DNA from: Clostridiales bacterium | Lineage (GTDB): Bacteria; Bacillota; Clostridia; Lachnospirales; CAG-274 | Assembly: GCA_021200955.1 (NCBI GenBank) | Contig: JAJQFU010000156.1 | Span: 1-40,538 of the forward strand | Length of the DNA: 40,538 bases | Direction: 5' to 3' | Shown: positions 34,548 to 35,614 of the stretch, in pieces | How positions within the stretch are numbered: position 1 is the first letter of the stretch | How the letters are laid out: each line of letters starts with the position of its first letter | The notes under the pieces: generated by a model | Told to the model about the DNA's origin: nothing | The model's input: only the letters and a program-made list of their open reading frames with translations | The model's database searches: none | Translations under genes and position numbers: made by a program

Positions 34548-35090
34548 TCAATAATCAATAACAGTGACTTCTGTAACAATATCATTTTCATCGAGAGTAT
34601 ATTCTGCGTGCTTATAATCATCGAAATAATGCAGCCCGTCCTCCTTGTCGCCGACGTTTTTCACTTTATAACATTTTTTATAGGCTTTTTCTATTTCACT
34701 TTTTGAAGAGCCTACACCTATATTGTCTCTTCCGAAACGAAATTCGGTTGAATATACGTATACAGCCGTAATCCTGTCCCCAATGTCTCCCAAAATAAGA
34801 TTATCCGAACTGAAAACAGCGGTCAATTTATCATCATATTTTGCCCAACAGCTGTATCTTCTTTCATCTCTTGCGTTGAGACCGGGTCTGACAGTAATTT
34901 CATCGGGCTTTCCGTAAATTGAAACAAGCTCACTGAACTGCGGATTTTTTGACAATGATAAACAGCCGTAATAGTCGGTTTCATAATATCTTGTAGCATA
35001 TCTGTAGCCGAAAACAACCGCCGCAGCCAAAAGAACAATTAAAATCAATATGGATATAATACAGCCCGTCTTTAAAGCCTTTTGTTCCAT
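34548..35090 (-). CDS. Unknown membrane-anchored protein, 180 aa, BamE/SmpA-like repeats possible
   Basis: I do not recognise the family with confidence. ATG 35090 is preferred over 35111 because GGGAGGAAAAA precedes it. One N-terminal membrane segment (about residues 9-32) is followed by an outside-facing domain. That domain contains two short units of the kind seen in BamE-like folds: FSELVSIYGKPDEITV and VGSSKSEIEKAYKKC, each a helix followed by strands, and ends EYTLDENDIVTEVTVID. Such folds bind other surface proteins or ligands; this is inference. It forms a two-gene operon with the 125-residue membrane protein. Two cysteines (in YYGCLSL and YSCWAKY) could form a disulphide. Confidence 0.7.
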   Translation of the reverse strand: MEQKALKTGCIISILILIVLLAAAVVFGYRYATRYYETDYYGCLSLSKNPQFSELVSIYGKPDEITVRPGLNARDERRYSCWAKYDDKLTAVFSSDNLILGDIGDRITAVYVYSTEFRFGRDNIGVGSSKSEIEKAYKKCYKVKNVGDKEDGLHYFDDYKHAEYTLDENDIVTEVTVIDY

Positions 35091-35133
35091 AATAGTTTTT
35101 CCTCCCATCAATTATAAAGAACAGATTTTTAAC

Positions 35134-35162
35134 TTGACACAATATAGCCTTTATGGTATTAT
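35134..35162 (+). promoter_or_regulatory. Strong sigma-A promoter with no long gene downstream
   Basis: TTGACA (35134-35139, consensus), 17 nt, TATTAT (35157-35162). It drives only a short transcript that ends at a terminator about 95 nt later. Confidence 0.75.
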
Positions 35163-35168
35163 AAAAAT

Positions 35169-35263
35169 ACAAAGAGGACTGATTTAATGAAGTTATTCCT
35201 CACCAAATTTTACAGTTTAAAATAACCGTTTTGGATTGGAAGCCCTTAGACGGTTATTTTTTT
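35169..35263 (+). ncRNA. Short transcript, candidate antisense RNA or 12-codon peptide mRNA
   Basis: The transcript runs from the promoter to a bidirectional terminator. It carries AGAGGA and a 12-codon frame (35187-35225, MKLFLTKFYSLK) whose stop lies in the terminator stem. Its 3' end overlaps the 3' end of the convergent 31-residue peptide gene, the arrangement of Fst/TxpA-type toxin-antitoxin loci. Whether RNA or peptide is the product is unknown. Confidence 0.5.
35220..35263. terminator. Bidirectional terminator shared by two convergent small transcripts
   Basis: AAATAACCG (35220-35228) pairs with CGGTTATTT (35251-35259), followed by seven T residues on the plus strand; an A/T-rich mirror end is present on the minus side. 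Confidence 0.75.
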
Positions 35264-35349
35264 GTTATGTTACGAATTATATTTATTATGCGTATTGCCA
35301 CTGAAATAATTACAGCAAGCACATATACGTCATAGATAATCGTTATCAT
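35254..35349 (-). CDS. 31-aa hydrophobic peptide, candidate type I toxin
   Basis: ATG at 35349 is preceded by AAAAAAGGAGGTGG at about 9 nt spacing. The peptide begins MITIIYDVYVLAVIISV, is almost wholly hydrophobic with three arginines and two lysines, and ends in NITKK. One membrane helix is expected. These are hallmarks of type I toxins (Fst, TxpA, Ldr-like), though no named family was matched. The stop codon lies inside the bidirectional terminator stem, and the last codons are encoded by the A-run that gives the terminator its U-tract. Upstream on the same strand a second site GAGGTGGTGCTT precedes the minimal frame ATG-ATT-TAA (35403-35395), a possible regulatory uORF. A promoter CTGAAA-17-TATATA (35422-35450) could drive it. 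Confidence 0.55.
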   Translation of the reverse strand: MITIIYDVYVLAVIISVAIRIINIIRNITKK

Positions 35350-35452
35350 AGACAATATCCACCTCCTTTTTTATATAATCCCGAAGATAAGAGCTTAAAT
35401 CATAAGCACCACCTCATTTCATATATAAGTAGGAAGGCGAGGATTTTCAGAA

Positions 35453-35579
35453 CTTTTGACTGCGTCAAAAGCCGGGCACGGCGTTTTTTTGTGGAAAAAA
35501 ATCAGCCGTGCCTGTCCCGACATCTTTCGGGTTCTTACCGCTTTTCAGGTCTCTTTGCTGAAATCCTTAAAAGGATTCT
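35453..35579 (-). ncRNA. Structured RNA of unknown family, five consecutive hairpins
   Basis: Read on the minus strand from a predicted start near 35579: AATCCTT/AAGGATT (35562-35577), TTTCAG/CTGAAA (35543-35563), CCCGA/TCGGG (35516-35531), GGCACGGC/GCCGTGCC (35475-35512, T- and A-rich loop) and CTTTTGAC/GTCAAAAG (35453-35471). An alternative stem GCCG/CGGC followed by TTTT competes with the fourth hairpin on the minus strand. On the plus strand the same GCCG/CGGC is followed by GTTTTTTT, a plausible terminator. No coding frame fits. It could be a stand-alone RNA or a long leader of the 31-residue peptide gene. Confidence 0.5.
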
Positions 35580-35585
35580 AAATAG

Positions 35586-35614
35586 AGTATAACATAAGGC
35601 TGTTAATAAAACAA
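35586..35614 (-). promoter_or_regulatory. Promoter of the structured RNA
   Basis: On the minus strand TTGTTT (35609-35614), 17 nt, TGTTATACT with the -10 at 35586-35591. The predicted start falls exactly at the first hairpin of the structured RNA. Confidence 0.5.

Follow-up and report, generated by a model that had tools for sequence, protein, structure and literature searches.

The locus upstream of rpsL raises the question of whether a hydrophobic peptide gene and a short RNA on the opposite strand form a type I toxin-antitoxin pair. A preliminary description, made from the letters of the whole stretch of 40,538 nucleotides (the window), had proposed such a candidate at 35134-35450. Its elements, namely the peptide ORF, the Shine-Dalgarno (SD) site, the plus-strand promoter, the hairpin, and an ATG-ATT-TAA frame, are all present in the sequence (Table 1). 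In the present study, the candidate was supported because the frame, the convergent promoters, the terminator, and the structures of both RNAs are kept over dozens of loci. The frame is conserved in relatives, where length changes respect the reading frame and base changes compensate one another. Our best reading is a type I toxin-antitoxin system that is chromosomal and multicopy, with a probability of roughly 0.83. The comparative data raise the candidate peptide/antisense pair to a well-supported locus of this type, and this clostridial genome contains at least a dozen such peptide/small-RNA pairs. The pair very probably acts as known bacterial toxin/antisense-RNA pairs do, but with unrelated peptides and an unusual, mirror-image layout. 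The sequence anatomy, conservation, and covariation were directly established, as was the masking of the SD as a predicted structure.

Table 1. Features of the locus upstream of rpsL (window coordinates).
Feature	Position	Strand	Basis
Antitoxin RNA promoter, TTGACA-17-TATTAT	35134-35162	plus	Consensus scan; kept in nearly all 30 copies tabulated
Antitoxin RNA, ~95 nt: 5' hairpin ending in TTATTCCTCACC, linker, terminator with U-turn loop	35168-35263	plus	RNA model R1
Bidirectional terminator common to both transcripts, region of full complementarity	35220-35263	both	Pair counts
Toxin candidate, 31-aa single-helix hydrophobic peptide	35254-35349	minus	ORF, paralogues, constraint, hydropathy
Toxin SD, GGAGGTG	35360-35366	minus	Sequence; cis pairing with leader anti-SD
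Leader hairpin domain: P2 ATATA/TATAT (35426-35422 with 35377-35373), inner helix, tip GCTTA-TGATT-TAAGC (35407-35393)	35373-35426	minus	Pair count of 31 sequences
Minigene ATG-ATT-TAA with its own SD, GAGGTG (35415-35410)	35395-35403	minus	Kept in about two thirds of ORFs
Leader anti-SD box, CCTCGCCTTCC	35432-35442	minus	Pairs and co-varies with toxin SD in nearly all copies
Dispersed palindromic repeat inserted into the toxin leader of this copy (5' hairpin loop)	35439-35534	minus	Same repeat at several unrelated genome places
Probable toxin promoter, TTGTTT-17-TATACT, extended -10	35586-35614	minus	Equivalent position in most copies; present at orthologous rpsL site of sister genome

The peptide ORF (translation MITIIYDVYVLAVIISVAIRIINIIRNITKK) has its stop codon within the terminator stem, in an arm of the hairpin at 35220-35259. 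Ten intact paralogues and one remnant were found in its own genome. The family occurs in six of the nine genomes of the genus and is confined to that genus among the 174 genera sampled in the order. The frame was open in all 25 aligned copies, in which length differences were multiples of three and substitutions were mostly conservative, hydrophobic for hydrophobic. The median dN/dS of these copies was 0.37. This signal is moderate, and the ratio alone is not decisive: of the two off-frame controls, one reached a comparable pN/pS (0.47), although that frame contains 58 stops. Taken with a hydropathy of 2.44 (17-residue window), these results give the ORF what a type I system requires, namely a gene for a small hydrophobic peptide whose coding constraint is conserved. 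Searches against Pfam, NCBIfam, and PHROGs profiles returned sub-threshold noise only; the view that the peptide belongs to no known family holds for these libraries. An Rfam search of the locus with gathering and relaxed thresholds gave no match.

On the plus strand, the consensus promoter proposed earlier was borne out by a consensus scan and by conservation across copies. It agrees with the consensus at 11 of 12 positions and is among the two best matches in 1 kb, being the only one of the two with an extended -10. A covariance model of the antisense RNA (R1), built from 29 copies, matched 35163-35267 with an E value of 4e-15, this copy itself being in the model. The promoter, 5' hairpin, linker, and terminator were maintained in the 29 copies, with 92.2% of cells paired (38-58% in slid controls). 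Moreover, 12 pairs were changed on both sides against 4.5 ± 1.3 in shuffles, and none of 500 shuffles equaled this number. The conservation of sequence, promoter, and structure points to an antisense RNA gene that overlaps the toxin mRNA, which is also required of a type I system.

The hairpin described as shared by both strands was likewise confirmed. Its inverted repeat, AAATAACCGTT...GACGGTTATTT, occupies 35220-35259, with T-runs on both sides, out to 35263. The 11 pairs were paired in 99.4% of cells, and five of them showed compensatory changes. A simple terminator scan did not list this hairpin because its loop exceeds the length allowed by the scan. On the antitoxin side, the loop has a YUNR U-turn in all but one of 29 copies (28; 19.1 ± 2.4 shuffled); the toxin-side loop shows no such feature (10 of 29). 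Recognition loops with a U-turn have been described for Fst and bsrG/SR4 (PMC7472228, PMC6562991). Separately, we noted that the ends of insertion sequences (TGAACTGCACCCAAAAA / TGTACTGACCCCAAAAA) start inside the terminator loop at seven loci, five on the toxin side (L002, L005, L007, L009, and L049) and two on the antitoxin side (L200 and L204). A protein fragment next to one such end matches rve_2. The hairpin thus seems to be a recurrent insertion site of IS3-type elements, which part toxin from antitoxin.

The extent first given for the locus contains the elements described, but misses the probable toxin promoter at 35614-35586, and the toxin transcript would therefore be longer than those coordinates imply. 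Transcription probably starts near 35578, and the mRNA would extend to ~35216, overlapping the antisense RNA at the shared terminator only. For the leader structure, minimum-energy folds of seven full mRNAs, RNAalifold on 34 leaders, and pair counts in 31 sequences were in agreement. In the predicted consensus, the anti-SD CUCACCUnCC pairs with the toxin SD at the base and is followed by ACAUA/UAUGU; a weaker helix then masks a second SD (GAGGUG) below the tip GCUUA-UGAUU-UAAGC. In the pair count, 92.5% of cells were paired, with compensatory changes in P2 (C-G to U-A in seven sequences) and in the tip (U-A to C-G in three). The leader motif had 11 copies in the genome and none in the reversed control; together with the ten peptide paralogues and the matches of R1 in all nine genomes of the genus, this goes well beyond what chance would produce. 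Cis pairing of anti-SD and SD was stronger for cognate than for non-cognate combinations (p=0.0002) and is thus locus-specific; it was present in the minimum-energy folds of most complete mRNAs tried.

The three-codon frame reported in the toxin leader exists, with its own SD, at 35403-35395; its setting has been corrected to the tip of the conserved SD-masking hairpin. This minigene was found in 31 of the 46 toxin ORFs of this class (30 counted and L036 by eye; anchored on the toxin alone). The remaining ORFs have another hairpin or an inserted repeat in its place, and the minigene is therefore a common but exchangeable part. A search for an SD followed by ATG-NNN(-NNN)-TAA/TAG found 39 leaders in two genera, although the pattern required a frame and was hence biased to intact minigenes. 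The second codon is variable (ATT, AAA, AGA, and ATT-GAT) and one copy has a TTG start, while start and stop persist, which favors translation. The minigene may also be an active part, either because translation of MI* drains peptidyl-tRNA hydrolase capacity or because it gates the toxin as mok gates hok. This proposal is compatible with our main reading and draws on the 39 leaders, the variable codon, the single TTG start, and the mok precedent (PMC4147584). However, we consider it unlikely: the search favored intact frames, about a third of the ORFs of this class do without one, and the position on a conserved hairpin tip accounts for much of the conservation.

Outside the terminator, the two RNAs are alike and not complementary, and both open with the same hairpin and anti-SD box. 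The 5' start of the toxin leader equals the antitoxin RNA module CAARAGGGARYAAC...GGUUNUUCCUCACC in the same sense, and at the DNA level the locus is an inverted repeat, co-varying from locus to locus, with differing middle parts. Among 47 loci, the local similarity of a leader was 14.3 to its own antitoxin and 10.4 to non-cognate antitoxins (p=0.0002 by permutation). When each type was represented by a single locus, the values were 15.3 and 10.2. Complementarity was 8.4 for cognate and 7.9 for non-cognate combinations in the 47 loci. Direct antisense pairing between the leader and the 5' region of the antitoxin did not exceed that of shuffles at most loci and was only weakly raised in the cognate/non-cognate comparison. 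Where the anti-SD box variants GCCCC, UAUCC, and GCUUCAC replace UUCCUCACC, both RNAs are in general changed. The antitoxin box would pair in trans with the toxin SD at 13.2 kcal/mol (10.2 kcal/mol shuffled); its cognate specificity is weak, with p=0.007 overall and no significance with one locus per type. We hypothesize that the antitoxin may block the toxin SD through the copied box. A long-range 5'-3' closure between leader CGGTTATT and terminator AATAACCG was dropped, as it is missing from the window copy.

We infer the transcription, pairing order, RNA decay, toxicity, and biological role of the locus as follows. The minus-strand mRNA would encode the membrane peptide with its SD locked in the leader hairpin by the anti-SD box (CCUCRCC). 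The antisense RNA of ~95 nt, whose promoter is nearer to the consensus, would run into the toxin mRNA, with the terminator in common. The two complementary terminator loops, with the U-turn on the antitoxin loop, would make the first contact, and pairing would then cover ~45-50 nt at the 3' ends of both RNAs. The duplex would subsequently be destroyed or held silent. If the antitoxin dropped, the leader would open and become accessible to ribosomes, which might enter through the MI* minigene. The peptide, once made, would depolarize or disturb the membrane. Recognition at the 3' ends together with a cis-locked SD is our best reading of the mechanism, and we are as confident of it as of the type I assignment.

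R1 matched all nine genomes of the genus, with 2 to 26 matches each and 90 in total (E <= 0.01). Across the bacterial family, it had matches in 22 of 48 genomes, which represent 7 of the 11 genera. In the rest of the order, a search with stricter filters found none in the 344 genomes sampled. Exact leader matches in named genomes fell in uncultured Clostridiales and Eubacterium sp. assemblies, with two further matches in Nostoc. The Nostoc matches (L112/L113) were taken as chance, and two other leader-motif matches, L083, which resembles part of a longer coding sequence, and L089, as chance or unsupported. No relatives were found in viral contigs, phage records, or plasmid records, and nothing therefore points to an addiction module of a phage or plasmid.

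The peptides opposite recognizable antitoxin RNAs include MIEIIYDIDVLIILIIIVIRIILYIITKR, MNNKDILYLTLVLIILYIIKTTA, MGYSELVLILILLFLIISANK, MENYLKLILLLMLIQNILALLIYIIK, and MIILIRDVQIFIIAIIIIFFIIKK and, in other genera, MGYYEYTYLLLLVIILIIAIKK, MNDTQITLLLLLLIIVYIKR, and MLSVDTFIGIVCLCATFFSLGYALGKNSTKK. Dissimilar hydrophobic peptides of 20-38 aa are held within the same RNA frame, and these alternatives had no match at the cut-off in the profile libraries. This exchange is indirect evidence that the peptide may be a membrane toxin that the frame keeps off. Since toxicity is itself deduced, the many paralogues might be condition-specific small membrane proteins, that is, peptides with a regulatory, non-toxic role under a cis-antisense RNA, or several related small regulators. 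We regard this as very improbable. Silencing is double, by a masked SD and by an antisense RNA with a promoter nearer to the consensus; dissimilar hydrophobic peptides are freely exchanged in the same frame; and the layout matches that of known type I systems. All three point to a peptide that needs to be kept off.

The type I reading implies a large toxin-antitoxin group, with homologous frames in six genera beyond the genus, that was overlooked by the family libraries searched. The conserved antisense frame with changing peptides suggests that searches by RNA frame, not by toxin sequence, should find more. In a joint reading, the antitoxin would be a trans copy of the cis lock of the mRNA besides the terminator complement, the minigene would be a gate, and the RNA frame would be the heritable unit in which unrelated peptides are swapped family-wide. 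This is possible, and we offer it tentatively, with more doubt than belief.

The preliminary description had likened the layout to that of Fst and TxpA. Convergent promoters and a shared terminator, both tested here, agree with it; the repeats outside the terminator are inverted, not direct. The par locus of pAD1 (Fst/Ldr superfamily, Gram-positive branch) has convergent promoters, a bidirectional terminator as the pairing site, a U-turn, an SD-masking 5' stem-loop, and a small hydrophobic peptide with a charged tail (PMC7472228). The present locus matches this published layout in part: it shares the U-turn motif, the charged-tailed hydrophobic peptide, and, by predicted structure and covariation, a 5' stem-loop masking the toxin SD. 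However, par pAD1 carries the complementary direct repeats DRa/DRb (PMC7472228), while the repeats here are inverted and in the same sense in both RNAs; the similarity and complementarity values given above do not indicate a second complementarity region of the Fst/Ldr kind. The antitoxin is ~95 nt here and ~40 nt in Fst/par pAD1, and the U-turn lies, unlike there, on the antitoxin side. The P-x-x-x-G core reported for Fst peptides is absent from the peptides here. The suggested comparison with Fst models gave no match at the cut-off for the Fst_toxin profile PF13955, a 21-position model of limited sensitivity that gave only sub-cut-off matches in control genomes.

In txpA/RatA, bsrG/SR4, and bsrE/SR5 of B. 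subtilis, toxin mRNA and antisense RNA pair through their 3' ends, as proposed here. The toxins of these systems are membrane peptides (30 aa in BsrE), and the SD is masked in bsrG (PMC6562991). In contrast, their 3'-3' overlap is 100-140 bp (PMC6562991), against ~45-50 nt here with only short complementarity outside the terminator. This short overlap, like the lack of a match to any known toxin family, counts against the type I reading. The toxin is unrelated to the txpA/bsrG type by Pfam/NCBIfam profile search, and the locus is chromosomal and multicopy and absent from the phage and plasmid records searched. In hok/sok with mok and at the tisB/istR standby site, a masked toxin start is likewise preceded by a frame in the leader or by an additional ribosome site (PMC4147584). 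However, the frame here has two codons only and lies within an apical hairpin, and the antisense RNA would contact the mRNA at the 3' end and not in the leader region. Besides the unmatched, dissimilar peptides in one RNA frame and the inverted same-sense repeats, this two-codon minigene is the third feature distinguishing the locus from Fst and TxpA. The same-sense 5' modules represent a regulatory design without a counterpart in the cited Fst or TxpA descriptions and provide a testable hypothesis, that of an antitoxin copying the mRNA's own lock.

In a sister genome whose S12 is 100% identical, the toxin promoter and early leader persist at 83% identity at the site orthologous to this one upstream of rpsL, but the peptide and antitoxin are gone. 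With the body lost there, the rpsL neighborhood is incidental and the locus dispensable. A link to rpsL was rejected, as other copies lie elsewhere and the sister genome lacks the locus body at this site. The sister-genome remnant upstream of rpsL is L164 (G005:C42, 1003-1212). In the window, just past the antitoxin promoter, the minus strand carries a 182-aa frame (34548-35096) that begins with a hydrophobic stretch in its N-terminal part and matches no Pfam model.

The locus is multicopy, with copies both scattered and in tandem and several of them at contig ends. Its two 5' modules are arranged as an inverted repeat, and its distribution is lineage-limited. These properties would also fit a MITE/REP-like element, mobile or repetitive, that is bounded by inverted repeats, has the peptide and promoters as passengers, and owes its copy number to transposition and not to a toxin-antitoxin function. 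We nevertheless give it only a slight chance: the peptide is under coding constraint, the structures of both RNAs covary, and the promoters and SD sites are conserved. The IS3-type element in the terminator loop accounts for several of the contig ends, and divergent copies across genera keep the anatomy and not the sequence, unlike a young repeat.

For the toxin-antitoxin loci as we read them, two or three lie within ~0.5-8 kb of each other at five places (G000:C108, G004:C72, G002:C22, G002:C59, and G005:C115), which suggests local duplication. Repeats of other kinds were also observed. A dispersed, REP/MITE-like palindromic repeat of ~100 bp, CCCGAAAGATGTCGGG...GCCGTGCC...TTTTGACGCAGTCAAAAG, lies in the leader of the window copy and of related copies. 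Another repeat, GTTCAGAATTTTTCC..., is located between the minigene hairpin and the toxin start in L051, L055, and L072 (ending in ...CTTTCGGGTTCTTGG in L051 and L055), where it cuts the native SD spacing.
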